Shown in pieces: positions 3,273 to 59,239 of a stretch of 64,000 bases of DNA. Source of the DNA: Bacteroidota bacterium (lineage in GTDB: Bacteria; Bacteroidota; Bacteroidia; Chitinophagales; Chitinophagaceae). The translations under genes were made by a program, and so were the position numbers. The notes below the pieces were generated by a model. The model was not told where the DNA came from. It saw only the letters and a program-made list of their open reading frames with translations, and searched no databases. The stretch covers positions 22,256 through 86,255 of the forward strand of contig JAPLEI010000100.1 in NCBI GenBank assembly GCA_026391195.1, read 5' to 3'. Each line of letters begins with the position of its first letter. The first letter of the stretch is position 1.

Positions 3273-5132
3273 ATGAATAAACGCATCCCTGGTTATCTGC
3301 TCATCAGCTGTCTGCTCCTGTTTCAAAGCTTATTCGCCCAAATTGATCATGTAGAACCCCTAAACTGGTTCATCGGCATGAAGAATCCTAGGGTACAATT
3401 ATTGGTTAACGGAGCCGACATCGGTACCAGCACTCCCTCTATCAAATATCCGGGCGTATCGATTGAAAAAGTTCATCGGGCAAACAGTAAGCAGTATCTA
3501 TTTATCGACCTCTACATACAACCCTCCGCTAAACCTGGCACCCTTTCCATTCGTTTTGAGAAAAATGGTAAAACCATTGCCACTTACCCTTACACATTAT
3601 TGGCACGCACGCAAGATCCCAATCAGTTCAAGGGTTTTACGGCTTCCGATGTAGTTTACCTGATTATGCCCGACCGTTTTGCCAATGGCGATACCACCAA
3701 TGATGTAGTTGCCGGAATGAAAGAAAACCAGGTAAACCGAACACGCCCCGGCGGTAGACATGGCGGAGATATTCGGGGTATCATCAACCACCTCGATTAT
3801 ATTCAAAAAATGGGGTTCACAGCCATCTGGTGTACACCCATGATGGAAAACAACATGGCAGGATATTCTTATCATGGATATTCCATCACCAACCACTACA
3901 AAGTAGATCCCCGCTATGGCACTATGGAAGATTACATAGAACTATCTGCCAAAGCAAAAGAAAAAGGAATCAAATTAATATTTGATGAAGTGCTCAATCA
4001 CTGCGGCAGTGAACATTGGTGGATGAAAGATTTGCCTTTCCCTAACTGGATAAATAAAGCCGACTCTTTTCAACTCAGCACGCACCGTAGAACTACCAAT
4101 CAAGACCCCTATGCCGCCGAATACGATAAAGACCTGATGACGCGTGGCTGGTTTGATAAAACGATGCCCGACCTGAATAGTGAAAATCCATTCATGGCAA
4201 ACTACCTCATACAAAGAAGTATCTGGTATACCGAAACCCTACAGCTGGGCGGCATCCGGCAGGATACGTATGGCTACAGCAATAAAAATTTTTTACAAAA
4301 ATGGAGTTGCCGGATGATGGAAGAATATCCCCGGTTTAGTATGGTAGGGGAAGAGTGGACCTACAATCCCCTGATTGAATCTTACTGGCAAAAGGGAAAG
4401 ATTAACAGCGATGGGTACAAAAGTTGCTTGAATACGGTAATGGACTTCCCCTTACAACAAGCGTTAACAGAAGGAATCCGCGAACAGGAAAAACCTTATT
4501 CCTCAACTGGTTTTACACGGATGTATGAAGCACTGGCGAATGATTTTGCTTATGCGAATCCGAATCAAATGCTGATTTTTGGCGACAACCACGATATGGA
4601 TCGGCTGTTCACCCAAATGAAGGAGGATCTTGCCCTAACTAAAATGGCGATTGCCTATTTACTAACTATGCGTGGCATCCCCCAGTTTTTATATGGCACC
4701 GAAATTTTAGCAACCAATAGCAAACACCCCAACGACCATGGGTATATTCGAATCGATTTCCCAGGCGGCTGGAATGCAGATACGACAAATGGATTTACCG
4801 GGATGGGTTTAGCTCCTGCTCAACTAGACATGCAATCATTTATGAGAAAAATGCTTAACTGGCGTAAAAATCATCCGGCCATTACTTCGGCTGCTACGCT
4901 ACATTTTGCTCCTTTTGAAGGGCTGTATGTTTACTTCCGCTATAACCAACAAGAAACCATCATGGTGGTGATGAATCGTAACAACGAAACGGCGCAACTG
5001 AACACGGCAAGAATGAAAGAAATCCTCCAGAATAAATCAATCGCCCAGCCTATTTTCAGTAACGAAAAACTACCACTCGCCAAACCCATCCCCATTCCCG
5101 GAAAAACAGCGATGATTTTTACCATAGAGTAA
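3273..5132 (+). CDS. GH13 alpha-amylase / cyclomaltodextrinase-neopullulanase-like (SusA-like)
   Basis: Motifs GGIRQDTYGY, MVGEEW, FGDNHDMDR; CDase-type N-terminal domain; ORF 3204-5132 trimmed to the ATG before the signal peptide. Confidence 0.88.
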   Translation: MNKRIPGYLLISCLLLFQSLFAQIDHVEPLNWFIGMKNPRVQLLVNGADIGTSTPSIKYPGVSIEKVHRANSKQYLFIDLYIQPSAKPGTLSIRFEKNGKTIATYPYTLLARTQDPNQFKGFTASDVVYLIMPDRFANGDTTNDVVAGMKENQVNRTRPGGRHGGDIRGIINHLDYIQKMGFTAIWCTPMMENNMAGYSYHGYSITNHYKVDPRYGTMEDYIELSAKAKEKGIKLIFDEVLNHCGSEHWWMKDLPFPNWINKADSFQLSTHRRTTNQDPYAAEYDKDLMTRGWFDKTMPDLNSENPFMANYLIQRSIWYTETLQLGGIRQDTYGYSNKNFLQKWSCRMMEEYPRFSMVGEEWTYNPLIESYWQKGKINSDGYKSCLNTVMDFPLQQALTEGIREQEKPYSSTGFTRMYEALANDFAYANPNQMLIFGDNHDMDRLFTQMKEDLALTKMAIAYLLTMRGIPQFLYGTEILATNSKHPNDHGYIRIDFPGGWNADTTNGFTGMGLAPAQLDMQSFMRKMLNWRKNHPAITSAATLHFAPFEGLYVYFRYNQQETIMVVMNRNNETAQLNTARMKEILQNKSIAQPIFSNEKLPLAKPIPIPGKTAMIFTIE

Positions 5133-5223
5133 TAAACGCAAAAAAACCGATTCCTTGCTTTTCAAGGTAATTGGCATACTTCAGCAATAAAATAGATACA
5201 TTTATCTACGATTTACTGCTCAA

Positions 5224-6660
5224 TTGCCTGCCATGAAAACATTACAAGCATCCTATACCGATGGATTTTTTGATGTGAGCGCCGCGCATGGATTTTTGCC
5301 GGCTGTTCCACCGCTGATTTCATTACCCCACATCTATCAGGCCCTGCAAGAGGTTCTTGATAACATGCCCATACAACTCAGTGATGAGCAACCCGGCTAT
5401 CTGCATTTCCCGGGAAAAATTCAGGAAGTAGCTAACCAATTACCCAATTATTTAGCAGAGGTAAAACAAGAAAGCGATATCCGAATTATTCAGGCTTTAT
5501 ACAGAGGCTATGCCTTTCTTACTTCTGCCTATACCCTGGAGCCCGCTTTTCAACATTACAAACAAACGGGAACCTATGGCAAAGCCATCAACACCTTACC
5601 CGCCAATATTGCCCAACCCTTTGTAGCGGTTTGCGAAAAATTAAACGTTTTTCCTTGGTTAGATTATCACTACGGTTATTCCCTGGGTAATTTTTATAAA
5701 ATTAATCCGGAAGGCTCACTCGAGTGGGATAACCTTCAAATGTGCGTAAAATTTTCTGGTCAGCCAGATGAAGCCGGCTTTATTTTATTGCATGTAGACA
5801 TCAATCAATTTTCACCCAACCTGGTAGGCTCCGTGTTAGCTACCTTAGCAGCAGTTGAAGCCAATGCAATCAATCAAGTGGAGGCAGGATTAGATAAGAA
5901 CCTCGATACCCTCACGCAAATGAATATCCGCAGAAAAGAAATGTGGAAGGCTTCTAGATGGCAACACTACAACGACTTTCGGGTTTTTATTATGGGCATA
6001 AAAGGGAATGAAGAAATTTTTGGTGAGGGTGTAACCTATACAGGGGTTTGGGATACCCCCCAACAATTCAGGGGGCAAACGGGTGCTCAGGATGATATCA
6101 TTCCAATGGAAGATATTTTTTCAGGGGTTACCCGATATTATTTAAAAAATGAACTGACCGACTATCTGCTGGATCTGCGAAAATATCGTCCCCACTGTGT
6201 ACAGGCATTTTTTGTAGACCTGGAAACACAAGTAAAACAGGTTCATGCTGATGGATTAGCTGGGTATTTATTTGAACAAGCTTCCGTGAATGGATTGGCA
6301 CGACTTCTCGGCATTTTAGAACAGATTTATCATTTCCGAAACGGGCACTGGCAATTTGTACAAAAATATATAATGGCCAATACCCCGTATGCAAAAGCTA
6401 CCGGCGGTACACCCATTACCACCTGGCTGCCCAATCAGATTACTGCGGTATTGCAACAAATGGAAGGAGTAATGCAATCGATTGCCTTATTATCTGATAT
6501 CCCAGATGAAAAAGGAACACTACTAATAGCTAACAATCAAGCTACCTTCCAACACAAAAAACAATTACTCGCAGAACAATTATCGATGGTTAGCCAAGAT
6601 ACCTATTCGGCAGATACTCTTTTTTCACTCAATTCCCGGTATGGCTTGTCGGACCAGTAA
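5224..6660 (+). CDS. Indoleamine 2,3-dioxygenase-like heme dioxygenase
   Basis: LRKYRPHCVQAFFVDLE and FRNGHWQFVQKYI...KATGGTP resemble IDO 'MRxYMPxxHRxFL' and 'HLQIVTKYI...GTGGT' (proximal heme His region). Confidence 0.75.
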   Translation: MPAMKTLQASYTDGFFDVSAAHGFLPAVPPLISLPHIYQALQEVLDNMPIQLSDEQPGYLHFPGKIQEVANQLPNYLAEVKQESDIRIIQALYRGYAFLTSAYTLEPAFQHYKQTGTYGKAINTLPANIAQPFVAVCEKLNVFPWLDYHYGYSLGNFYKINPEGSLEWDNLQMCVKFSGQPDEAGFILLHVDINQFSPNLVGSVLATLAAVEANAINQVEAGLDKNLDTLTQMNIRRKEMWKASRWQHYNDFRVFIMGIKGNEEIFGEGVTYTGVWDTPQQFRGQTGAQDDIIPMEDIFSGVTRYYLKNELTDYLLDLRKYRPHCVQAFFVDLETQVKQVHADGLAGYLFEQASVNGLARLLGILEQIYHFRNGHWQFVQKYIMANTPYAKATGGTPITTWLPNQITAVLQQMEGVMQSIALLSDIPDEKGTLLIANNQATFQHKKQLLAEQLSMVSQDTYSADTLFSLNSRYGLSDQ

Positions 6661-47226: not shown

Positions 47227-47278
47227 CCCCGTTTGTACGTGCGGTCCGCCAAAGGTGGACGTGCGAACGGGGTTTTTT
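47227..47278 (+). terminator. Rho-independent terminator
   Basis: CCCCGTT...GTCCGCC AAA GGTGGAC...AACGGGG followed by TTTTTTT. Confidence 0.85.
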
Positions 47279-47323
47279 TCGTGGGGGTGGCAATTGAACT
47301 ACCTTTGCATAAAATCAGATTAC

Positions 47324-48511
47324 TTGATAGAAAGAAAATCAGCCGCTTTTAAAGAAGACCAGGCCGTGTTAGTGGGGGTGATACAGAAAGACCATACCGA
47401 AATTCAGGTAAACGAATACCTGGATGAGCTCACTTTTTTGTCGGAAACTGCCGGAGCAATCGCCGTGAAACGTTTTACCCAAAGATTGCCGCATCCCGAC
47501 AGTAGAACCTTTGTGGGCAAGGGTAAGCTGGAAGAAATTAAACAATACGTAAAACAAAAAGGCATTCCGCTGGTGATATTTGATGATGAACTTACCGGTT
47601 CGCAGATATCCAATATAGAAAAAGAGCTTGGCGTAAAAACCATCGATCGGAGTGATTTAATTCTCGACATTTTTGCCAGTCGAGCCCGCACCGCCCAGAG
47701 TAAAGTGCAGGTAGAACTGGCCCAATACCAATACTTGTTACCACGCCTCAAGGGCTTATGGAAACACCTAGAAAGACAGGGAGGGGGCATTGGTACACGA
47801 GGCCCCGGGGAAACGGAGATTGAAACCGACCGCCGGATAGTGAAAGACAAGATATCCCTGTTACGTAAGCGATTGGCCGAAATAGACAAACAATCCTTTA
47901 CCCAGCGCAAAGAGCGGGGTGAGCTGATACGGGTAGCATTGGTGGGGTATACCAATGTGGGCAAGAGTACGCTGATGAATGTGCTGAGTAAGGCAGAAGT
48001 ATTTGCCGAAAACAAACTCTTTGCCACCCTAGACACTACTACCCGCAAAGTAGTATTTGAGAATACGCCTTTTTTGTTAAGTGATACGGTGGGTTTTATT
48101 CGCAAGCTGCCCCATCATCTGGTAGAAAGTTTTAAAAGTACGCTGGATGAAGTGCGGGAGGCGGATATATTATTGCATGTGGTAGACACTTCTCATCCGC
48201 AATACGAAGAGCAGATTGGCGTAGTTAATAAAACCCTGCAAGAGTTAAAAGCCTTTGAAAAGCCGATTCTTACGATATTTAATAAGATGGATTTATATGT
48301 AGAACGGCATTTTGATCAGTGGCTGTCGGAAGATGTAAAAGAAGAGATTCTCCGCGATTTACGCCATCGCTGGGAGGAAGCCACGCAAAATCAGTGTGTA
48401 TTTGTTTCGGCTACCGAGCGCGACAACCTGGAGGCATTGCGCAACCTGATTTTAGAAAAAGTGCGCGATATGTACGGCATCCGCTATCCTTACAAAACCA
48501 TGATTTATTAA
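47324..48511 (+). CDS. hflX: GTPase HflX
   Basis: GGGIGTRGPGETEIETDRR, GYTNVGKSTLMN, DTVGFIRKLPHHLVESFKSTLDEV; ORF 47255 begins inside the terminator, so the start was moved downstream of the TACCTTTG promoter-like motif. Exact start uncertain. Confidence 0.93.
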   Translation: MIERKSAAFKEDQAVLVGVIQKDHTEIQVNEYLDELTFLSETAGAIAVKRFTQRLPHPDSRTFVGKGKLEEIKQYVKQKGIPLVIFDDELTGSQISNIEKELGVKTIDRSDLILDIFASRARTAQSKVQVELAQYQYLLPRLKGLWKHLERQGGGIGTRGPGETEIETDRRIVKDKISLLRKRLAEIDKQSFTQRKERGELIRVALVGYTNVGKSTLMNVLSKAEVFAENKLFATLDTTTRKVVFENTPFLLSDTVGFIRKLPHHLVESFKSTLDEVREADILLHVVDTSHPQYEEQIGVVNKTLQELKAFEKPILTIFNKMDLYVERHFDQWLSEDVKEEILRDLRHRWEEATQNQCVFVSATERDNLEALRNLILEKVRDMYGIRYPYKTMIY

Positions 48512-48944: not shown

Positions 48945-49018
48945 TCCTCCTTAGCTCAGTTGGTTAGAGCATCTGACTGTTAATCAGAGGGTCGTCTGTT
49001 CAAGTCAGACAGGGGGAG
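48945..49018 (+). tRNA. tRNA-Asn (GTT anticodon)
   Basis: TCCTCCT acceptor / AGGGGGA; D-arm TAGCTCAGTTGGTTAGAGC; anticodon loop CTGTTAA; T-arm GTCTGTTCAAGTCAGAC. Confidence 0.97.
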
Positions 49019-49132
49019 CAAAACCAGTGTGAGAGCGAGTGTGGGTGTGGGAAATTTTTCCTACACTGATTTTACTTCACACTCAAACTCGAACTCACTC
49101 TACTTAAAGCCGGGATTTTATCTCGGCTTTTT
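49004..49132 (+). repeat. Junction J0 and core repeat R1 (overlaps tRNA 3' end) with terminator 49106-49132
   Basis: GTCAGACAGGGGGAGCAAAACCAGTGTGAG...GTGTGGGAAATTTTTCCTACACTGATTTTAC...CACTCTACTTAAAGCCGGGATTTTATCTCGGCTTTTT. Confidence 0.85.
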
Positions 49133-49150
49133 AATTGCTACTATTGGAAG

Positions 49151-49330
49151 GTAGCTGCATCTTTCGTCGGTAAGGGGAGCGAAATCAGTGTGAGAGCGAG
49201 ATTGAGTGTGGGAAAATCTCCTACACTGATTTTTCTTCGCTCTCAAATGCTCCAGAGGCGCACAGGCTCAAACCTTGTGCGCTGCAAGCGTATCACTCTA
49301 CTTAAAGCCCCGCTATAATCGGGGCTTTTT
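49151..49330 (+). repeat. Junction J1 and core repeat R2 with terminator
   Basis: GTAGCTGCATCTTTCGTCGGTAAGGGGAGCGAAATCAGTGTGAG...GTGTGGGAAAATCTCCTACACTGATTTTTCTTC...AAAGCCCCGCTATAATCGGGGCTTTTT. Confidence 0.88.
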
Positions 49331-49353
49331 AATTCTACAACTGGAAGGAAGCA

Positions 49354-49380
49354 ATAGCTTTTGTCAATAAGGAGATTAGA
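49354..49380 (+). repeat. Junction J2 (left half only)
   Basis: ATAGCTTTTGTCAATAAGGAG at the start of the HicAB module. Confidence 0.7.
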
Positions 49381-49476
49381 CATAAAAGTAAAAGGGTTAT
49401 ACTTTTAAAGTATGATTTTTTTGTATATGATTATTTAAATTTTCGGAGAAAGTAATAAATATATTACCTTTACTAG

Positions 49477-49662
49477 ATGAAATCCAGCGAACTTGTTCGA
49501 CTACTTAAAAAGGATGGTTGGTTTGTCATAAGGCAAACAGGAAGCCACATGATAATGGAGCATCCATCTAAAAAAGGACAGATAGTTTGCCCTTATCATG
49601 GCAGTCAAGAAGTCGGAAAGGGATTGGAAAAGAAAATTAAAAAAGACGCAGGCATTAAATAA
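49477..49662 (+). CDS. hicA: HicA-family mRNA interferase toxin
   Basis: SSELVRLLKKDGWFVIRQTGSHMIMEHPSKKGQIVCPYHGSQEVGKGLEKKIKKDAGI. Confidence 0.95.
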   Translation: MKSSELVRLLKKDGWFVIRQTGSHMIMEHPSKKGQIVCPYHGSQEVGKGLEKKIKKDAGIK

Positions 49663-49670
49663 AAATTTTT

Positions 49671-50048
49671 ATGAAAATTGAAATGATAGTTGAAAAAACA
49701 AAAACTGGCTATTCAGCCTATGCTGAAAAATATCCCGTTTATACAGTTGGGAAATCCTTGGATGAACTTAAAAATAAAATTATTGAAGCGCTCAATCTTT
49801 ATTTTGAGAAAGAGGGCACAAACATCACTGAAAAAGATTTAAAAATCAAGTTAGATCTACCTCATTTTTTTGAGTTTTATAAAGTGATCAATGCAAAAGC
49901 CTTATCAGAAAGAATCGGCATGAACCAAAGCCTTCTTGCTCAATATATAAAAGGAAATAAAAAACCATCTACAACCCAAACTCAAAGAATTTTAAAGGGA
50001 GTACAACAGATAGGCAGCGAGTTAGCGGCGATCCGTTTTTTACTTTAA
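49671..50048 (+). CDS. hicB: HicB-family antitoxin with C-terminal XRE HTH
   Basis: HicB-like N-terminus YSAYAEKYPVYTVGKSLDELKNKIIEAL; HTH ALSERIGMNQSLLAQYIKGNKKPS; adjacent to hicA. Confidence 0.9.
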   Translation: MKIEMIVEKTKTGYSAYAEKYPVYTVGKSLDELKNKIIEALNLYFEKEGTNITEKDLKIKLDLPHFFEFYKVINAKALSERIGMNQSLLAQYIKGNKKPSTTQTQRILKGVQQIGSELAAIRFLL

Positions 50049-50130
50049 TGATTTAAGATTATTCCGGTTCGTTCAAATTTATATGAAGAAGATTCAGTTG
50101 ATATTTTTATTTATTACTCACATAGAGAAA

Positions 50131-50341
50131 TAGCAGCAGCATTTGTCAATAAGTAAAACGAAAATCAGCGTGAGTGCCTGTGCGGCTTTGGATTATGGGT
50201 GTGGGATATTTTCCTACACTGATTTTACTTCACATGCACCAAAGGCGCACAGGCTCAAATGCTCCAGAGGCGCACAGGCCTTACTTGTGCGCTGGAAGCG
50301 TATCACTCTACTTAAATTCCTGCTATAATCGGGGCTTTTTT
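50131..50341 (+). repeat. Junction J3 and core repeat R3
   Basis: TAGCAGCAGCATTTGTCAATAAGTAAAACGAAAATCAGCGTGAG...GTGTGGGATATTTTCCTACACTGATTTTAC...GCGTATCACTCTACTTAAATTCCTGCTATAATCGGGGCTTTTT. Confidence 0.88.
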
Positions 50342-50409
50342 TATTTCAATTTTAATGTTACACAGTTACAGGTGGTGGCAAAAATGGTGATATAATCAAA
50401 TTTGAAAGA

Positions 50410-50766
50410 TTACGCTAAGAGTACATCAGCAGGAATACTCAGTTCTCTGTGAAACAACTTTGCCAGTTCCAGTGTAAGGGGCTTACGCTTGTTGAGGAGT
50501 GCAGATACATACCCTTTGCTACCTACCTTCCCTACCAAATCCTTATTTTTTAATCCCAGGTCTTGCATCTTTAATTTGATGGTTTCAATCGGATCTGGTA
50601 CAGGTATCGGATAATGCAGATCTTCATATTGTTTAATCAGTAAAAGCGCGACCTGCACTTTTTCTCCCTTTGGGCTATCTGGTTTTACTTTTTTATCCAA
50701 TTGTTTATCAACCCAGTCAAGATATTCTTGGTATTGTTTTTTTGTTCTAATGATTTTGAGCTCCAT
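50410..50766 (-). CDS. higA: HigA-like XRE antitoxin
   Basis: IETIKLKMQDLGLKNKDLVGKVGSKGYVSALLNKRKPLTLELAKLFHRELSIPADVLL. Confidence 0.85.
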   Translation of the reverse strand: MELKIIRTKKQYQEYLDWVDKQLDKKVKPDSPKGEKVQVALLLIKQYEDLHYPIPVPDPIETIKLKMQDLGLKNKDLVGKVGSKGYVSALLNKRKPLTLELAKLFHRELSIPADVLLA

Positions 50767-50768
50767 AA

Positions 50769-51080
50769 TTATTTCTTTGAGTGTTGAATAGTAGTAACAT
50801 CAATTTTATCATACTCGGCATGTGTACCAAACCATTTGATCTGAACAACTTTGAAATCAAAAACAATTCGTACCACCAACCGGTATTTATTACCCATTAT
50901 ATTAAATACCACACAATTATCTGCCACAACCCTTACATTACCATATACCCTTTTTAACTCATTAAAGTTTTTAAAATCACTGTTTACCAACTCGTGATAC
51001 CATTCCTGTAAAGCTGTTGAAGCGGCAGGATATTTTTTACAATAATCCAACAAGGTCTTTCTGGTAATGATGCTAAACAC
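50769..51080 (-). CDS. higB: HigB-like (HigB_toxin family) mRNA interferase
   Basis: LVNSDFKNFNELKRVYGNVRVVADNCVVFNIMGNKYRLVVRIVFDFKVVQIKWFGTHAEYDKID. Confidence 0.9.
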   Translation of the reverse strand: MFSIITRKTLLDYCKKYPAASTALQEWYHELVNSDFKNFNELKRVYGNVRVVADNCVVFNIMGNKYRLVVRIVFDFKVVQIKWFGTHAEYDKIDVTTIQHSKK

Positions 51081-51273
51081 AAGGCAAAGATGATAAAATG
51101 TTTTCTATTAGAAAACAATTCCCGAAGCGTACTATTATTAAATTATTTTTACACAACCTCGTGTTTTAGTCACTTTACCATACAATTGCTCACCGTTACA
51201 ATCAACCTCGTGCAATTTTTGAACGAACTATTTTATTGATTTACAGATAATTAATATTTCCGACAGTCTATTA

Positions 51274-51468
51274 TAGATGCATTTTTCGTCAATAAGGGGA
51301 GCAAAATCAGTGTGAGTGTGGGATTGGGTGTGGGAAATTTTCCTACACTGATTTTTCTTCGCATGCTCCAGAGGCGCACAGGCTCAAATGCACCAAAGGC
51401 GCACAAGCCTTACTTGTGCGCTGCAAGCGTATCACTCTAAGCGCATTCATTTTCGGATGCGCTTTTTT
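51274..51468 (+). repeat. Junction J4 and core repeat R4 with alternative terminator
   Basis: AGATGCATTTTTCGTCAATAAGGGGAGCAAAATCAGTGTGAG; perfect 11-bp arms AAAATCAGTGT (51303-51313)/ACACTGATTTT (51345-51355); inner near-palindrome GTGTGGGAAATTTTCCTACAC (51328-51348); terminator GCGCATTCATTTTCGGATGCGCTTTTTT. Confidence 0.9.
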
Positions 51469-51640
51469 ATTAAATTAAATGCAAAATAGCTACAGCTTGC
51501 GTCAATAACGCAAAATGATAATCAAGCAGTTACGAGTTTATAGCCGTAGCTGCTTTTTTATTTGCACCAAAATTTGCACCACAAAGTCGGGGAGCTCGCA
51601 ATTGAAATGTGCGGGAATTAATTTTAAGAAATTCATCCAG
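51440..51640 (+). repeat. Second dispersed repeat family, copy A (contains junction J5)
   Basis: Shared with 58262-58440: GCGCATTCATTT..GGATG.., AAAATAGCTRCA, GATAATCAAGCAGTTACGAGTTTATA, TTTGCACCAAAATTTGCACC, GGGGAATTAWTTT-like segments. Confidence 0.8.
51526..51559 (+). terminator. Terminator-like hairpin
   Basis: GCAGTTACG AGTTTATAGC CGTAGCTGC followed by TTTTTT. Confidence 0.7.
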
Positions 51641-51667
51641 CTTCCCATTCTTTTATAATTTTTAGCA

Positions 51668-51877
51668 ATGACTCCAAGTGAAATATTATTAAATGGCCTT
51701 TCCGTTTAGCAGTTGATCGAACTATTGAGACCTAAAATCAAAGAAGAAATTCGACAAGCGCAATTAGAACAGCCATAGAAACTGCTGTCACAAGCGGAGA
51801 CCTGTAAACTTTTTAAAGCGGCTATTACAAGAGCTACCCCGACTTCATTGACTAAACAGGGCCTTTTACAAGAGTAA
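51668..51877 (+). pseudogene. Degenerate helix-turn-helix (excisionase/MerR-like) gene remnant
   Basis: MTPSEILLNGLSV*QLIELLRPKIKEEIRQAQLEQP*KLLSQAETCKLFKAAITRATPTSLTKQGLLQE; two in-frame stops. Confidence 0.5.
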
Positions 51878-52069
51878 TAAATCCTCTTCTTTTGTATCTT
51901 TTATCTGCAGCAGTTCCAGGCTGATGGATCACAGAATTCCCCCCGCAACGCCAATGCGAGATTGTTGTGCGAAATTTATCAGCTCTCTTATATTCAATCA
52001 TAACCAATTGATTTTCATACGATATTAATAAATTAGCCTTAATTCAGGCTCTTTTCATTTGCTAAAATA

Positions 52070-52088
52070 ATTCCCAATCATTAGGAAT
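52070..52088. promoter_or_regulatory. Palindromic candidate operator of the MqsRA-like locus
   Basis: ATTCCCAATCATTAGGAAT, near-perfect dyad, about 40 nt upstream of the predicted toxin ATG. Confidence 0.5.
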
Positions 52089-52127
52089 TTTAAAAAATAC
52101 CCTTACCTTTAAAAAAGCAAGTAACTA

Positions 52128-52508
52128 ATGAAACAATAGCGATAAACAGAAGAGAATGTTTCCATTATACAAGACTTTTTAGATGAAACTAAGAAGCGAA
52201 TATCTGATGGTGTCGAAATTATTTTCACAAAAAAAGCTGGCTCTGAATTGGAAGATTTAGCTCTGGTTTACGATATCGAAGTGAGTGATATTGAAGCAGC
52301 TATATCAAATCTGACTACTGAAAATTATTATAGAGGAATTGATCCTTCTTGGAGCGCCGATTTTAATGTATGTGCATTTTGCACAAATATTGCAGAAGCT
52401 AAAATTGAAATTTATTTAAAATATAGGTTAGAGGTGAACGGTTTTCAGATTTTACTTTTCTCTAATCATGAACCAGATTTTCCGATGAAACAGCCTTTTA
52501 AAAATTAA
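52128..52508 (+). pseudogene. MqsR-like toxin with nonsense codons at positions 4 and 6
   Basis: In-frame ATG AAA CAA TAG CGA TAA ACA GAA GAG...: MKQ*R*TEENVSIIQDFLDETKKRISDGVEIIFTKKAGSELEDLALVYDIEVSDIEAAISNLTTENYYRGIDPSWSADFNVCAF... Confidence 0.55.
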
Positions 52509-52512
52509 TATT

Positions 52513-53010
52513 ATGGAAACCAAGAAAGTATTAACAAGAGAAAATATTCCTACCAATGAAATTAGTGGTATGACTGAAAAAACTTTTAGAGGAATTAAAT
52601 TAAAGTACCCTGAAGTTTATTATCTTGATCATAATGTAGATGAAGAAACCGGAAAAATCAATAGAAGTGTAAAGGTTAAACATTACACTAAAAATCAAAT
52701 AGAACGAAATATTAAAGCACTTAAATCTGCTTATCTTATTGCAAAAGGAGCAGCAGACCCGAGTGAAATCATTGATTTTAGAAATAAGTATAAAATATCT
52801 GCTTCTATTTTTAGTATTATTTTAGGGTTTAGCAAAAACACGATTTCTAATATTGAAAACGAAGGGATGACATCCTTATCTACTGGCAGATTAATAAAAG
52901 TATGTTTAGATAATAAGGAAATCGTTTGTAAATATATTCAATTGTGTGACGCAATTGAACAAAGTAAAAAGGAAGAGTTGTCAAAAAGACTAATGGAAGA
53001 AACTATTTAA
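52513..53010 (+). CDS. HTH antitoxin (MqsA-like C-terminal region)
   Basis: IIDFRNKYKISASIFSIILGFSKNTISNIENEGMTSLSTGRLIKVCLDNKEIV, adjacent to the MqsR-like gene. Confidence 0.65.
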   Translation: METKKVLTRENIPTNEISGMTEKTFRGIKLKYPEVYYLDHNVDEETGKINRSVKVKHYTKNQIERNIKALKSAYLIAKGAADPSEIIDFRNKYKISASIFSIILGFSKNTISNIENEGMTSLSTGRLIKVCLDNKEIVCKYIQLCDAIEQSKKEELSKRLMEETI

Positions 53011-53020
53011 ATACTAATTC

Positions 53021-53047
53021 AGGCCAGGATTTAAGCTCGGCTTTTTT
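53021..53047 (+). terminator. Cassette terminator (R1-like)
   Basis: AGGCCAGGATTTAAGCTCGGCTTTTTT, similar to AAAGCCGGGATTTTATCTCGGCTTTTT of R1. Confidence 0.6.
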
Positions 53048-53064
53048 ATTTCTACAATTGGAAG

Positions 53065-53096
53065 ATAGCTGCAGGTTTTGTCAATAAGAGTAGCAT
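53065..53096 (+). repeat. Junction J6
   Basis: ATAGCTGCAGGTTTTGTCAATAAGAGTAGC. Confidence 0.75.
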
Positions 53097-53100
53097 GCAA

Positions 53101-53125
53101 GACCGGCTTTATGCCGGTCTTTTTC
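53101..53125 (+). terminator. Strong rho-independent terminator
   Basis: GACCGGC TTTAT GCCGGTC TTTTTC, perfect 7-bp stem. Confidence 0.85.
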
Positions 53126-53341
53126 ATTTTCTCGTATGCATGCCCCGACAACGCAGAGCGTTCGTCGGTGGTCCAACATGGGGAGCACTGAAAATCAATG
53201 GATTACAGAAATATAGCTCTTTTTTTATTAAGCCCTTCCGAAACAATTCCGAAACAAACGGCAAAATAAACCTGTTTTTAAGGGTTGCTGGTGGGCTGAA
53301 GGAAGCATCTATTTATAGCTACTTTAACTAATTACAGGCAT

Positions 53342-53897
53342 TATTCAATCGGTTATCGGTTCGATGTATGGATCAGGAACAATTTGAATAATAGTTTGAG
53401 TGGCTTGTTCGGTTTCAGTTTCCAGTTGCAAGGGTATCAGCTTTGAAGCCAATCGGTAAAATTCGGTCGGGGTTCGCCTTCACCAGGCTACAAGGATCAC
53501 CGTCTTCTCTTCCTGAAATAGTTCAATTGCTTCAGCGAAGTGTTCCCTTATTGCACTGGTAACACGGTTCTCGGCAACTTTTGTATTTTTCAGTAAAAGG
53601 TGCAATACCTGTTCATTGGCGTCCATCAAATCTGTCGGTAAATCATAATCAGCTGCTGAATTTGCGCCGGTTGATCTTTCAGAAATGGATTGATTTTTAC
53701 CAGCCTTTCTGCTAGTAAATCTTTAAGTATTACTTCCCGCAGCGATTTAGGAAGGGATGTCGAGGTTTCGTTGACCTGATTAGCTTCGTTGAGCTCTTTC
53801 AACTCCCAGCTAATTCCTTGAGTTGATTAATAAAAGGGCTCTCTACTTTGGTGTACTCGTCTATACGGAGTTCCTTATTTTTTTGCAATTCGTACAT
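53342..53897 (-). pseudogene. Truncated/frameshifted type I restriction HsdR N-terminal remnant
   Basis: MYELQKNKELRIDEYTKVESPFINQLKELAG then frame shift to WELKELNEANQVNETSTSLPKSLREVILKDLLAERLVKINPFLKDQPAQIQQL; multiple stops after. Confidence 0.6.
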
Positions 53898-53924
53898 AAC
53901 GTTTTTATTTAGCGCCGGAGTTTA

Positions 53925-54300
53925 CCGGTTAATCCCGGCGCTGTCCGATAAAATAACGGACATGTCCGTTATCCTGTCCGATATGCCCGGTTTTCCGGCG
54001 GTTTTATCGCCGTAAATACCCGGGGAACCGCCCTAAACCGCAGCTTCTGCCGGCGGCTGGCGGCAAAATATCGGACATTGAGCTGGTAGCCTTCCGAAAT
54101 ACCGGCATTTTCCCGCCAACGGCGGCAGTTTTATCGGACACGTCCGATATTTTGTCCGATATATCCGGCTTTTCGGCGGTTTTATCGCCGCTGGCGGCGG
54201 CGGCGCCAAAATATAGGACACACTTGCGGCAGCCTGACCGATATCGCCGACATTATCCGGCTGATAGCGGCTAATATTACCGCCATGGCGGTGCCGATTC
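53925..54300. repeat. GC-rich palindromic repeat cluster built on TGTCCGATA / TATCGGACA units
   Basis: Two ~56-nt copies: CGGACATGTCCGTTATCCTGTCCGATATGCCCGGTTTTCCGGCGGTTTTATCGCCG and CGGACACGTCCGATATTTTGTCCGATATATCCGGCTTTTCGGCGGTTTTATCGCCG, plus single half-sites. Confidence 0.8.
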
Positions 54301-54301
54301 A

Positions 54302-55786
54302 TCATTTGTTCTTTATAAAATACCTTGTCCCTTTCTTTTCACCCTCCCTGGCTAATACTTCATCCTTCACCAATTTATTCAAATGCCTTCCTGCTGTCTT
54401 TGGAACTAAATTAAAGTGCATAGCATAATCCCCGGTCGAAATCTTGCCCTTCTGCCTCACAAAAGCAACTACCGCTTCATCAGATAAAGCAGGGGCAACC
54501 GGCTTAACTTCCGTTGCTTTCTGCTTCTTCCGATAAACGGTTATTACAAAATAGCCTTCTTCCATCCTGAAATCCGGATCTGGTAACTCTTCATTATTCT
54601 TAAAGGCTTTCAGTTCCTTCATACCAATTCCCCGTTCTTCAACAACCCCCGATTTAAAAAAGACATATGCCAGTTTCGGATTACGACTAATGGAGGGCAC
54701 CTGGAATGCACGGAACCTTTCAATATCTATAATTGGTTCACCGGGGCTCCATATTTCTATTTTATCCTTTGAAGCGACAATCCGGATTTGCTTATTCTGA
54801 ATGGTATAATCCCGGTGAACAATTGCATTCACTATTAATTCACGCAGCAACTTCTTAGGAATATCAACTATCTCTTCCCGATGAAAATTATCACGATTAA
54901 TCTCAGGCAGAAAAGTTAAATCGAGTAAACTTTCTGCCTTATCTGGCATCAACAAGATTGGGCCTTCAATATCTTTTATTTTTGCATCACCAACAGATTG
55001 TTCTATTGTAAATTTTATCCTTGCTTGTTCAAAAGCAGACTGCGGATTACGACCCAACACCAATAACCCAAGGCCTGTCGGCTTTACAGTATTTGAATGG
55101 TCGGGTTTGTATAACATGTCCAACTGCAACAAGAATTTAAAAAATCCCTCTGACCCGACCTTAACACTCAAACCCATCCGATCAATCAATTCCTGCTGTG
55201 CTTCTTCTGAAAAATCTGTTAAATCGAAATTATTCATGTGCTGTGTCAATACAGTTACAGTAGGAACAAGTGTTTTATGGTGTTCCTCTTTCGCTCTTAT
55301 TTCAGCATCATCAAAAAACTTCTTGTTTTCATTATAAATAATATCATACAGGTCGCCATCGAAATAATCCACTTCAATTTTATTGGCAATTAAGAAATCT
55401 CTGCCTTCACCTGCCACGGAAGGGTCAGGATCAATTGCGCCAATATATACTTTACCTATACGGGCATTGGTTATCCTTTCGGCACAGGAAAGCTTGGGAT
55501 GGTTTCTTGCACCAGGAGCACAAGGCTCCAGTGTTGCAAATACCACAAGACCGGTAAGGTTACTGCCCCAGTGGTGACGTTCAATTGCAGTGAACTCTGC
55601 ATGATCGCCAATGCGTAATTCGCCACGATGTGATTTACCAACCAATTTTCCATCTGGTGTTGCAATCACAGCGCCTACTTTTGGATTAGGTTTACCATCA
55701 GACCTGTTGGGGTCGGGAACCGACTTTCGCATTTCCTCGATGGCCATTACCATCAACTCCCTTTGTGTATATTTTTTTGTTGCCAT
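54302..55786 (-). CDS. Deaminase (RibD/dCMP-deaminase-like) fused to an ATPase/HTH regulator-type region (HATPase_c_4-like)
   Basis: N-term: HAEFTAIE...TLEPCAPGARNHPKLSCAERI; C-term: LLRELIVNAIVHRDYTIQNKQIRIVASKDKIEIWSPGEP and winged-helix end GDYAMHFNLVPKTAGRHLNKLVKDEVL. Confidence 0.85.
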   Translation of the reverse strand: MATKKYTQRELMVMAIEEMRKSVPDPNRSDGKPNPKVGAVIATPDGKLVGKSHRGELRIGDHAEFTAIERHHWGSNLTGLVVFATLEPCAPGARNHPKLSCAERITNARIGKVYIGAIDPDPSVAGEGRDFLIANKIEVDYFDGDLYDIIYNENKKFFDDAEIRAKEEHHKTLVPTVTVLTQHMNNFDLTDFSEEAQQELIDRMGLSVKVGSEGFFKFLLQLDMLYKPDHSNTVKPTGLGLLVLGRNPQSAFEQARIKFTIEQSVGDAKIKDIEGPILLMPDKAESLLDLTFLPEINRDNFHREEIVDIPKKLLRELIVNAIVHRDYTIQNKQIRIVASKDKIEIWSPGEPIIDIERFRAFQVPSISRNPKLAYVFFKSGVVEERGIGMKELKAFKNNEELPDPDFRMEEGYFVITVYRKKQKATEVKPVAPALSDEAVVAFVRQKGKISTGDYAMHFNLVPKTAGRHLNKLVKDEVLAREGEKKGTRYFIKNK

Positions 55787-55796
55787 GGTAACTTAT

Positions 55797-56165
55797 TTAA
55801 AGGCCATAGCCTTGTTTAATTTTATTCAATACCTCCGGGTGGCTCTTTTTAATATCATTCAGGTTCCATGTAGAGTATTGGTTGTATATCCTCCCAAAAT
55901 TGCTGAATAATTCAACGTGACTTTTAAAATACATTTCCTTTTTTTCGGCATAAGCTTTATTGCTTCGCGCTGATTTTTTTCTTCTTGAAATAAGCACCAG
56001 GTTCTGCATTTTATTTGTCCATTCTGATTCTTCTAAATCTGTAAAATCAATCTTTCTTTGGCTAGCATCCTGCGGTGTTTGTGGTAGTTCATGTTCTATG
56101 CTTATTGTTTCAGGCATTTCTAACTTGGTGGTGTAACCATGATAAAACAAGTCCAGTTTCAGCAA
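55797..56165 (-). pseudogene. C-terminal remnant of a GmrSD-type (DUF262/DUF1524) nuclease
   Basis: ISIEHELPQTPQDASQRKIDFTDLEESEWTNKMQNLVLISRRKKSARSNKAYAEKKEMYF resembles the DUF1524 HNH region 'IEHILPQ...WTNxLGNLxLLSxxxNSxxSNxxFxxKK'; no N-terminal half. Confidence 0.7.
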
Positions 56166-56379
56166 AACAAATTGTCAGCTCCCCTAAAATCCGCCATATT
56201 CAAAAGTACAATCAATTTATTGCTTTTTAAGGGGCAAGTGTTAGGTAGATCCAACATAAATCCAGTTGTTATGATAAAGCATTTAGAAAATGAATACTGA
56301 TTGTCCCCAACTTAGTTCCCTCAAAATCAAACGAACTAATTCATTGATAATCAACAAATTTAAAACTGAGTAACCCGGA

Positions 56380-56484
56380 ATAGCTGCATCTTTCGCCAAT
56401 AAGGCGAGCGAAAATCAGTGCGAGCGCCTGTGCACTGCAAGCGTATCACTCTACTTAAAGCGCCGCTATAATCGGGGCTTTTTC
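56380..56484 (+). repeat. Junction J7 and short core repeat R7 with terminator
   Basis: ATAGCTGCATCTTTCGCCAATAAGGCGAGCGAAAATCAGTGCGAG...CACTGCAAGCGTATCACTCTACTTAAAGCGCCGCTATAATCGGGGCTTTTT. Confidence 0.88.
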
Positions 56485-56534
56485 TTTGTCCATCAGTGCG
56501 CTAGGGGGGGTGTATCTTTTCTTATATTCACCAT

Positions 56535-57629
56535 ATGAAAACATTTCTTTTTGTTCTAACCTTCTTACTGTATGGAAATTTATATTCCCAAAGTACGCTG
56601 AGTCCAAAAGAACCTGATAATAAGACGGTAAACATATTGAGCAAATACCCTAAAGAAATTGCCGAGATCATTTATTCAAAAACCAAAGATTTGCCAAATA
56701 ATACGCAACTTTCCATAGCCTTAATTGAAAATGGGGAAACCTATTATTATGGAATTATAATAGAAAATGACACCTTAAAACCAGCCGAAAATCAAAAGAA
56801 AATATTTGAAATAGGCTCAATCACAAAAGTATTCACATCAACTATTTTAGCGTCACTTGTTGAGAATAAAAAAATAAACTTGACTGACGAAATAAATTCT
56901 TATTACCCTTTTGCTTTCAAAGATAACATCAAGATAAATTTTGAGAGTTTAGCTAACCATACATCAGGGTTACCACGTTTGCCAGAAAACCTAGACTTAT
57001 CAAATCAAGTTAATCCATATAAAAATTTTGGCAAACCCGAAATTGAGCAGTATCTGAAAAATTTATTGAAACTTGGAAACAAAACATATTCATATTCAAA
57101 CTTGGGTGTAGGACTTTTAGGTTATACACTCGGTTTATCTCAAAAAACAAATTTTCAAAGCCTTTTACAAAAGAAAGTTTTTGACAAATACAAAATGAAA
57201 AATTCATTTACAAGTTCCCAAAATTTGGGGAATAATCTTATTAAAGGATTGAATAAAAAGGGAGAAGTTGTATCTAACTGGGATTTTGATGTTCTATTTG
57301 GAGCAGGAGGAATATTATCTACAACAGAAGATTTGGCACTTTTCGTAAATGCACAATTCAATCCTAAAAACAAAGAGCTCGAATTGACAAGAAAAACAAC
57401 TTCTGAAATTAAAGGAAATACGAAAATTGGTTTAGGCTGGCACAAATTAGAATCCGAAAATGGAAAAGGATTCCTTTGGCATAATGGAGGAACAGGCGGA
57501 TATTCATCTTCAATAATATTTAAAATTTCAGATAAAACGGCAGTTATTATCTTATCAAATGTATCAGGTATTAATGGCCAAATTGACGCTATATCCTACG
57601 AATTGATAAATAAAACGAATAAAAATTAA
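56535..57629 (+). CDS. Serine hydrolase, class C beta-lactamase-like
   Basis: SxxK in FEIGSITKVFTSTILASLV; YSYSNLGVGLLGYTLG; HNGGTGGYSS. Confidence 0.9.
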   Translation: MKTFLFVLTFLLYGNLYSQSTLSPKEPDNKTVNILSKYPKEIAEIIYSKTKDLPNNTQLSIALIENGETYYYGIIIENDTLKPAENQKKIFEIGSITKVFTSTILASLVENKKINLTDEINSYYPFAFKDNIKINFESLANHTSGLPRLPENLDLSNQVNPYKNFGKPEIEQYLKNLLKLGNKTYSYSNLGVGLLGYTLGLSQKTNFQSLLQKKVFDKYKMKNSFTSSQNLGNNLIKGLNKKGEVVSNWDFDVLFGAGGILSTTEDLALFVNAQFNPKNKELELTRKTTSEIKGNTKIGLGWHKLESENGKGFLWHNGGTGGYSSSIIFKISDKTAVIILSNVSGINGQIDAISYELINKTNKN

Positions 57630-57711
57630 CGAGCAAGATTAGTTATTTAAGATTGTGTGCGATGGCTTGTCAAATACTTTCCTGATAGTCACAAACTCAA
57701 TCATCGCATTT

Positions 57712-57746
57712 TGGCTGCATCTTTCTAGGAAAAGAGGAGCAAAATA
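57712..57746 (+). repeat. Junction J8 (divergent)
   Basis: TTTTGGCTGCATCTTTCTAGGAAAAGAGGAGCAAAATAAATG. Confidence 0.6.
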
Positions 57747-57852
57747 AATGTTTTACCGGTTTTTCTCTTAATTCCGATAATGCCAACAGTAAAATTAACA
57801 CCAGCCTGAATAAGAATTAAACAGCGTGAAAGTTCCCTAAAGTGATAAACTG

Positions 57853-58092
57853 CTACAATGTTTTATGCGAGCCATCACAAAACCCTGGATTTTTTGTATG
57901 CTTACAATTACACAAGTAGGCTGTTTTAGTTTCTTCAGCTACAAATACTTTTGGAACAAAAGAAGAACCTTTATGTGAACCATCACAAAATGGTTGATTA
58001 GTTGATTTGCCGCAAGAACACCATGCGTAAGTTTTACCGGCTTCTAATTGAACCGGTAGCGGAGTTTTTCCTGCAATTGTTGGGTTTTCCAT
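57853..58092 (-). CDS. Tandem CDGSH iron-sulfur protein
   Basis: CSCGKSTNQPFCDGSHKG and CNCKHTKNPGFCDGSHK. Confidence 0.93.
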   Translation of the reverse strand: MENPTIAGKTPLPVQLEAGKTYAWCSCGKSTNQPFCDGSHKGSSFVPKVFVAEETKTAYLCNCKHTKNPGFCDGSHKTL

Positions 58093-58261
58093 TTTTTTAT
58101 TGTGAAATTAAGTAATGTTTTCGATTAATTCGGGTAAGACTATGATGCCTTTTCTTACCCATGAGTTTGTAAATGCAAATAGCACTCATCAGTTTGGTGC
58201 CCATGCTTACGAAGCTGTAAAGAAAAGGAAGTTTTAAATTTTCTGATTAAGACAAAGTTAT

Positions 58262-58440
58262 AGCGCATTCATTTCTGGATGCCCTTTTTAATTACAGCAA
58301 ACCCAAAATAGCTGCATCTTAGACAACAAAGCAAGGTGATAATCAAGCAGTTACGAGTTTATACCCTATTTGCACCAAAATTTGCACCAAAAAATCGGGG
58401 TGGTTGGCTAGTAAAATGTCGGGGAATTATTTTCATCCGG
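58262..58440 (+). repeat. Second dispersed repeat family, copy B (contains junction J9)
   Basis: AGCGCATTCATTTCTGGATG..., AAAATAGCTGCATCTT, GATAATCAAGCAGTTACGAGTTTATA, TTTGCACCAAAATTTGCACC; collinear with 51440-51640. Confidence 0.8.
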
Positions 58441-58637
58441 CTAATTGGCATCCTGCTATTTTTTACATGTAGATATAATTGCTAGTCAGACTTCATTGAA
58501 TAGGCTGTTTGTTGAGGTGTTGTTTGAATTTTTCAGGATCTTCAAATTCAAAATATTTCAGAAAGCATCAGAAGCAACAAACATCTGTTGTAATATTATG
58601 GTAGGATTAGCTACTTATACAAAGTAAATACATCATT

Positions 58638-58850
58638 ATGGACAAATTTGAATACAAAATACTGGATGTTTCCAGAACGCAGATTAAGAAGGAAGGATTT
58701 CAGTTAGAGTTAATGGAAAAGCTTAACGAACTCGGAGCCAAAGGTTGGGAGCTAATCACCATCGAGGGTATGACTGAAGGTTCAGCATTATTCCGTATAA
58801 GTGAGACGACGGATGTGCTGTTTGTTTTTAAAAGGAAGGTGAGTGGGTGA
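58638..58850 (+). CDS. DUF4177-like small protein
   Basis: KFEYKILDVSRTQ...LMEKLNELGAKGWELITIEGM. Confidence 0.75.
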   Translation: MDKFEYKILDVSRTQIKKEGFQLELMEKLNELGAKGWELITIEGMTEGSALFRISETTDVLFVFKRKVSG

Positions 58851-58920
58851 GCGTAGTATAAGAAACGATGTTTTGAAATTTTCTGATATAGACAAATCTA
58901 TTCAACGAATAAGAAAACAT

Positions 58921-59040
58921 TATTTATCAGTAATGAGAGCAAAATCACCCTGAGTGTGTGCGCCAGTGGCGAAACAAAAGCTAAACACGTGGACTAAAAG
59001 CCTACCACTCTACTTTAGGCCACGATTTCTCGGCTTTTTT
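58921..59040 (+). repeat. Junction J10 and divergent core repeat with terminator
   Basis: AGTAATGAGAGCAAAATCACCCTGAGTGTG...CCTACCACTCTACTTTAGGCCACGATTTCTCGGCTTTTTT. Confidence 0.65.
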
Positions 59041-59239
59041 ATATCTAAAAGTGGTAATTTACTTCTGCATTTTTAAACCAAATAACAAGTTATGACTTCC
59101 GAATTAATTTTTAGTTTTTTAATGATTGCAACATACTTATACCTTGATTTTCTTGGGTATAAATTTATGTCCCAAAGAAAAGGGCTAATTCAAATGTTTA
59201 TAACAAAGTATAAAGCAAGAATTAAAATTAAACATACAG

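Follow-up and report, generated by a model that had tools for sequence, protein, structure and literature searches.

A tRNA-Asn gene as the probable anchor of mobile gene cassette arrays in freshwater Bacteroidota

In freshwater Bacteroidota, the hosts of the system described here, gene cassettes line up directly behind one tRNA gene. The region that we analyzed is very probably a tRNA-anchored array of mobile gene cassettes. Judged from sequence comparison, we show that the units are bounded by GGGGAGC, that the 3' end of tRNA-Asn and the unit termini serve as interchangeable left boundaries, and that one and the same whole unit can be found in distant taxa, in changed order and at more than one place in an array. 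We tentatively propose a Bacteroidota-wide gene-capture platform apart from integrons, with a one-sided ~95-bp att site and a built-in 5' terminator. Its cassettes would enter at the 3' end of tRNA-Asn without a dedicated integrase in the host genome, relying on host XerC/XerD or on the enzyme of a passing element.

Organization of the array behind tRNA-Asn

The window is a stretch of 64,000 nucleotides (G000:C64:22256–86255) in a genome of 3.16 Mb. Its host genus is large, and the named members reached in our sampling include Sediminibacterium. An HflX gene (47255–48511) and a Rieske-type gene stand upstream of the tRNA-Asn, which is the sole match of the Rfam scan. The tRNA 3' end reads AGGGGGAGC (49011-49019) and is followed by AAAACCAGTGTGAG. 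From the last tRNA base to about 59.1 kb we delineated approximately 11 units, each of which starts directly behind an intact or decayed ..GGAGC.

48945..49019, + strand: tRNA-Asn(GTT), the anchor (ARAGORN, Rfam RF00005)
49020..49180, + strand: cassette 1, gene-less, with hairpin, terminator and terminus TAGCTGCATCTTTCGTCGGTAAGGGGAGC
49181..49377 (end approximate), + strand: cassette 2, gene-less, like cassette 1, with degenerate terminus GTCAATAAGGAGATT
49378..50159 (end approximate), + strand: cassette 3, HicA toxin (49480-49662, PF07927), degenerate terminus
50160..51302, + strand: cassette 4, hairpin unit and HigB toxin/antitoxin pair (50410-51080, - strand), intact terminus GTCAATAAGGGGAGC
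51303..51513 (end approximate), + strand: cassette 5, gene-less, degenerate terminus
51514..51592, + strand: left-end relic of an integrase-bearing element, terminator and TTTGCACC..TTTGCACC repeats
51514..53094, + strand: unit 6, the preceding relic and genes at 52248-53010, terminus ..GTCAATAAGAGTAGC
53095..56409, + strand: unit 7, deaminase/HATPase_c_4 protein (54302-55786, - strand) and GmrSD_C protein (55797-56165, - strand), terminus ..GCCAATAAGGCGAGC
56410..57740, + strand: cassette 8, beta-lactamase-family protein (56535-57629, PF00144)
57741..58336 (end approximate), + strand: cassette 9, CDGSH iron-binding protein (57853-58092, - strand), degenerate terminus
58337..58400, + strand: second TTTGCACC-type element-end relic
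58337..58940, + strand: unit 10, the preceding relic and a small ORF, terminus ..GAGAGC
58941..59085 (end approximate), + strand: cassette 11, decayed and gene-less, the last recognisable repeat of the array

Several units are thus gene-less, consisting of hairpin, terminator and terminus, and most of the later unit ends are degenerate. Because so many termini are degenerate, the array of the window may be inactive. Its best-preserved 95-bp terminus belongs to cassette 8 (65 bits), and homologues of cassette 4 are present in the arrays of three other genomes (G034, G006 and G004). The repeat AAGGGGAGC[A/G]AAATCAGTGTGAG is found at 49172 and 51294. It is confined to the array and absent elsewhere in the 3.16-Mb genome; the window motif gave three matches against none expected from 100 dinucleotide shuffles.

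The ORF at 49671-50048 in cassette 3 is, by its position only, probably the HicB antitoxin. In unit 7, the protein encoded at 54302-55786 joins a cytidine-deaminase-like domain to a RecG-C-terminal-like HATPase_c_4 domain, and with the adjoining GmrSD C-terminal-domain protein it may form a defence or restriction pair. We also notice a hairpin, AAAATCAGTGTGAG..CCTACACTGATTTT, that opens gene-less units and is repeated at 49020-49063, 49181-49230 and 51303-51350. Strong copies of this hairpin were found only in the window genome and its closest relative, G036.

The shared terminus and the point of exchange

The tandem units share a conserved terminus of ~95 bp (consensus ..TTTAATTTCCTGATAGTCACAAACTCAATCATCGCATTATAGTTGCATCTTTCGTCGAAAAGGGGAGC), whose conserved arm contains TTGCATCTTTCG and which ends in AAGGGGAGC in 49 of the approximately 53 intact termini. 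The corresponding tRNA ends read AGGGGGAGC, TTGGGGAGC or, in Aquirufa, AGAGGGAGC, and the termini keep an A where most of these tRNAs have a G (position 67). Over all taxa sampled, the tRNA and the motif have only GGGAGC in common, extending to GGGGAGC in a narrower comparison; the remainder of the terminus is not evidently tRNA-derived. The G67 of the tRNA could be explained by selection on the acceptor stem, whereas the A of the termini is not explained in this way.

The initial annotation had read the right half of the motif as a copy of the tRNA-Asn 3' end. The shared AA-x-GGGGAGC bears this out in part, but the alignment needs a 1-nt gap and the rest is not tRNA. AAAAyCAGTGTGAG lies outside the tRNA and forms the 5' end of the following repeat unit, and the GTCA match does not hold generally, for other tRNA-Asn genes differ there. 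The description of an att-like motif, with elements accumulated at the tRNA, stands; the idea that each insertion newly copied the tRNA end into the motif holds only in part. The motif is mostly the cassette's own conserved ~95-bp terminus, which travels with the cassette and keeps its A. The conserved A at position 67 and the shared ~95-bp terminus speak against simple copying of the tRNA end. In short, the proposed crossover was rightly placed and partly wrong in nature.

Most simply, strand exchange would fall within the six bases GGGAGC, because both sides keep their own bases to the left of this segment and the unit body changes to its right. We infer that the last seven bases of the window tRNA-Asn, GGGGAGC (49013-49019), constitute the exchange segment, on the basis of the breakpoint at the last tRNA base in two sister genomes (G011 and G099). 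To the right of the exchange segment, we found no shared recombinase-binding arm.

These features suggest a possible course of the reaction. A site-specific recombinase would act on a circular cassette and on a partner site, which is the tRNA end or a further terminus, and exchange their strands within GGGAGC. The reaction would proceed in phage style, with the conserved ~95-bp left arm as part of attP and the tRNA end as attB. Exchange 3' of tRNA position 67/68 would keep the tRNA gene intact. The enzyme would be supplied either in trans by a transient element or by the host as XerC/XerD.

Whole cassettes change places between genomes

Superimposing the loci of the sister genomes G011 and G099 revealed 99.74% identity over 2.3 kb ending at the last tRNA base (99.7% further upstream), after which the two diverge. 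This supports the earlier suggestion that the tRNA-Asn 3' end is the insertion or anchoring site. The cassettes follow in the order tRNA-A-B in G011 and tRNA-B-C-A-D in G099. Cassette A (1,020 bp) is 99.2% identical between them over positions 1-1020, and cassette B (1,310 bp) is 98.2% identical. Past the last terminus of G099, a terminator and flank that also occur in G011 (54 bp, 91%) lead into 4.6 kb of synteny at 94.6%. Cassette B is also 96.2% identical in G094, where the host flank reaches just 83–84%.

A cassette of 762–763 bp extends this pattern to distant taxa. It aligns from the first or second base to the last among Aquirufa aurantiipilula, A. rosea, Sandaracinomonas, a Cytophagaceae MAG and the Sediminibacterium-type genome G144, at 84-99% identity, or 88–99% when the MAG is set aside. 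In A. aurantiipilula it stands directly after tRNA-Asn, and elsewhere it has other left neighbors. As in integrons, tandem cassettes here change in order and content as whole units. Whole-unit mobility is thus shown by comparison of present-day sequences, in which no move in progress was seen; neither a circular cassette nor excision was observed.

Such units could in principle also be moved by ordinary homologous recombination, with DNA uptake as a possible source and the shared termini as substrates, since the termini are ~95 bp long and alike and the flanks are homologous within a species. However, RecA would need more than the 6-9 bp that the tRNA and the termini have in common, and no shared flank was detected for the moves between distant taxa. 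We consider this explanation very unlikely for the array as a whole, and homologous recombination may help to reorder arrays within species.

Terminators at the unit starts

An intrinsic terminator, a hairpin followed by a T-run with the stem ending 25–44 nt into the unit, was detected at 75 of 93 unit starts (81%) by a simple purpose-written script, which is an uncalibrated predictor. It is present at 33 of the 37 starts after a tRNA and at 42 of the 56 after a terminus. In comparison, one was detected in 2 of 88 windows placed mid-unit, and the shuffles gave 0.3. Each insertion would sever an essential, strongly transcribed tRNA gene from its old terminator, so that the new unit must replace it; the 5' terminator may persist for this reason.

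Distribution and cargo

The order HflX–Rieske–tRNA-Asn is conserved in approximately 25 genomes of the genus (Sediminibacterium-type), and the sequence after the tRNA differs in nearly every one. Variable insertions behind a tRNA that relatives keep in common are as expected of a tRNA-anchored additive island. After the final GC of the tRNA, the relatives usually have an unrelated hairpin and a T-run. The cassettes measure ~0.5–2 kb (median 1,020 bp) and lie in tandem downstream of tRNA-Asn. The contig of the closest relative stops 404 bp past its tRNA, and the peptidase gene on the right-hand side of the window was not found in the tRNA-Asn loci of relatives that we examined.

A model of the ~95-bp terminus has matches in 61 of the 147 genomes that represent the genus, and in five of 101 other sampled genera of the family. 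Where tRNA-Asn is in view, the termini lie downstream on the strand of the tRNA with few exceptions, namely inverted termini in L123 and L232 and a weak match near tRNA-Leu in L101. The exact core pattern TGCATCTTTCGTNNNNAAGGGGAGC occurs in at least 114 stretches. Almost all of them carry a Bacteroidota label, and isolates of Aquirufa, Sandaracinomonas and Sediminibacterium are represented. One record with the label Bacilli and one with the label Acidobacteria, both of them MAG contigs, are candidate cases outside the phylum. Most arrays are found in MAGs, and five isolates carry termini too. A virus or plasmid carrier was rejected, as the exact pattern had no match in IMG/VR and BLAST gave none in phage or plasmid records.

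Among the cargo are toxin–antitoxin, defence-related and small metabolic genes. A sample annotated with Pfam and PADLOC, in which a number of genes come from flanks or larger elements and which is thus not a pure cassette inventory, contains HicA, HigB, PD-Lambda-2-like pairs, DUF2442, DinB, HxlR, alpha/beta hydrolases, short-chain dehydrogenases and restriction-like genes. Of 34 units with clear bounds, 27 have their longest ORF on the strand of the array.

The tRNA-Asn genes of G004, G014b, G024 and G030 (L049, L045, L056, L051) differ blockwise in their anticodon- and T-stem sequences between close relatives, a pattern that element-borne copies could have produced by replacing part of the tRNA. 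G014 has two versions of tRNA-Asn on two contigs. At L059 (G034:C7:75000-90000, ~4700-5800), where no tRNA-Asn is in view, an intact terminus adjoins a truncated tyrosine-recombinase C-terminus, and this is a possible secondary insertion site.

Larger integrase-bearing elements at the same tRNA

In G037, an element of ~19.6 kb sits between tRNA-Asn and the array. It encodes an integrase with Arm-DNA-bind_5, SAM_5 and PF00589 domains, and is flanked by the tRNA and by a copy of the tRNA 3' half starting at the anticodon stem. Together with G037, five loci carry such 43-bp copies of the tRNA 3' half away from the complete tRNA. True tRNA-half duplications are a feature of larger elements that bear an integrase and are found in genomes other than that of the window. 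The long tRNA copy, set against the 6–7 bases shared by cassettes, makes these elements look distinct from the cassettes. In the window, paired TTTGCACC repeats behind a terminator (51559-51592 and 58367-58400) match the left end of the G037 element, and the same arrangement adjoins the tRNA in G037. Since these end repeats recur twice in the array, the window holds relics of such elements.

The relics bring up another reading, in which the array consists of fossils of successive tRNA-targeting integrative elements and the motif is the decayed attR of an ICE or prophage whose genes were lost. Integrative elements do use tRNA-Asn, as the five 43-bp copies and the integrase beside one of them in G037 attest, and two of their ends remain in the window. 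However, decayed attR sites should diverge independently from the tRNA, and instead the termini share one non-tRNA sequence of ~95 bp. The movement of intact ~1-kb units in different orders, and the end-to-end conservation of a cassette across distant taxa, weaken this reading further. We regard it as unlikely, and favor an array of mobile cassettes into which element ends were included.

Relation to known systems

The arrays resemble integrons, including sedentary chromosomal integrons, in their small, mostly single-gene tandem cassettes, mostly in one orientation, their primary anchor site, toxin-antitoxin-rich cargo, reordering and horizontal spread. Unlike in integrons, no IntI was found, no attC-like fold is apparent, a tRNA 3' end serves as the anchor and a terminator stands at the unit start. 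In place of GTTRRRY, the proposed exchange segment reads GGGAGC. When 18 termini were folded as DNA, the folds were weak (mostly -2 to -8 kcal/mol), and those inspected had no structure in common. None of 16 array genomes had a protein above the TIGR02249 cut-off, in a search where matches were fragmented and 14 control genomes also gave none; the best candidate of the window genome, as a protein, scored 193.7 against the cut-off of 265 bits. A true integron or an integron remnant (CALIN) was rejected on these grounds, and we hold it to be most improbable. The array is integron-like in its working, and is not an integron by its defining parts.

Additive flexible genomic islands have been described at tRNA genes, such as fGI1 of Alteromonas (PMC4119200). 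In fGI-2 of Methylopumilus, the repeats are described as the last 20 bp of tRNA-Lys and the islands reach tens of kb (PMC10872708). Shared with the arrays are a conserved tRNA as repeated target, variable accretion and repeats resembling the tRNA end. In contrast to Methylopumilus, only 6-7 bp are shared here, the ~95-bp terminus is separate, and units of ~1 kb are reordered whole. Within the wide group of additive islands anchored at tRNAs, the arrays form a variant whose units are miniature, whose shared terminus is one-sided and whose terminators are built in.

Tycheposons, as outlined in a study on Methylophilaceae that cites the original Prochlorococcus work, span 4-200 kb and encode a tyrosine recombinase (PMC10872708). 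They likewise have tRNA-bordered cargo, but the units here measure ~1 kb and no recombinase was identified for them. NBU1, an element of the IntCTnDOT integrase type, is cited as residing in the 3' end of tRNA-Leu (PMC8138268). Such elements share with our system Bacteroidota hosts and tRNA targets, and arm-binding and SAM-like domains are present in the integrase of G037. They are autonomous with their own integrase, whereas the G037 element sits between the tRNA and the array and does not compose it. Our literature search, with most subscription journals and preprints outside its coverage, retrieved related tRNA islands and no description of this system.

If our proposal is true, the arrays would represent a second cassette-capture system with integron-like behavior, of which none was found reported for Bacteroidota in the literature searched, and a tRNA gene would act as its assembly platform. 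Across distant taxa, the arrays carry toxin–antitoxin, defence-related and beta-lactamase-family genes. The question arises which enzyme moves the cassettes where only XerC/XerD-type recombinases are detected. The five isolates with termini make the system experimentally testable.

Candidate enzymes

Among 113 proteins sampled from ORFs of arrays and their neighborhood, only two match PF00589, one in an integrase-bearing element and one a truncated C-terminal fragment. No recombinase gene in this sample is tied to the units, nor do the units have a tyrosine recombinase of their own as tycheposons and IMEs do. Two PF00589 proteins with the scores and lengths of XerC/XerD, and no others of this family, were seen in G008 (97% complete) and likewise in the isolate A. 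antheringensis; G139, G040 and G117 have two each. For comparison, Xer-exploiting elements (IMEX) have a dif-like site on which XerC/XerD act. The Xer class was assigned by size, score and comparison with XerC/XerD of the window genome, not gene by gene. Some array genomes thus have no Pfam-recognised site-specific recombinase besides XerC/XerD-type proteins, within the bounds of the profiles used and of assembly completeness, which leave room for other families or missing genes.

PF00239 and PF01797 had no match in G008, G139, G117 and G040, so that no cognate serine integrase or Y1 transposase was recognised in these genomes. Serine recombinases were rejected, as Pfam recognises none in seven array genomes, that of the window among them, and those near Cytophagales arrays are not general. 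The Y1/IS200 transposase was rejected as well, since 11 of 15 array genomes lack it.

The tRNA-Asn arrays of L231 (Aquirufa rosea) and L232 (A. antheringensis) have serine recombinases at most a few kb away; most Sediminibacterium-type genomes tested lack such enzymes. The one near the array of A. antheringensis is a small resolvase, and that genome is therefore not free of other recombinases. The window genome itself encodes two extra tyrosine recombinases resembling Xer proteins and integron integrases (G000:C157:15253-15747 and C127:10354-10836; L007, L005). Both score below every specific cut-off and one has an in-frame stop; they are possible candidates for the array enzyme.
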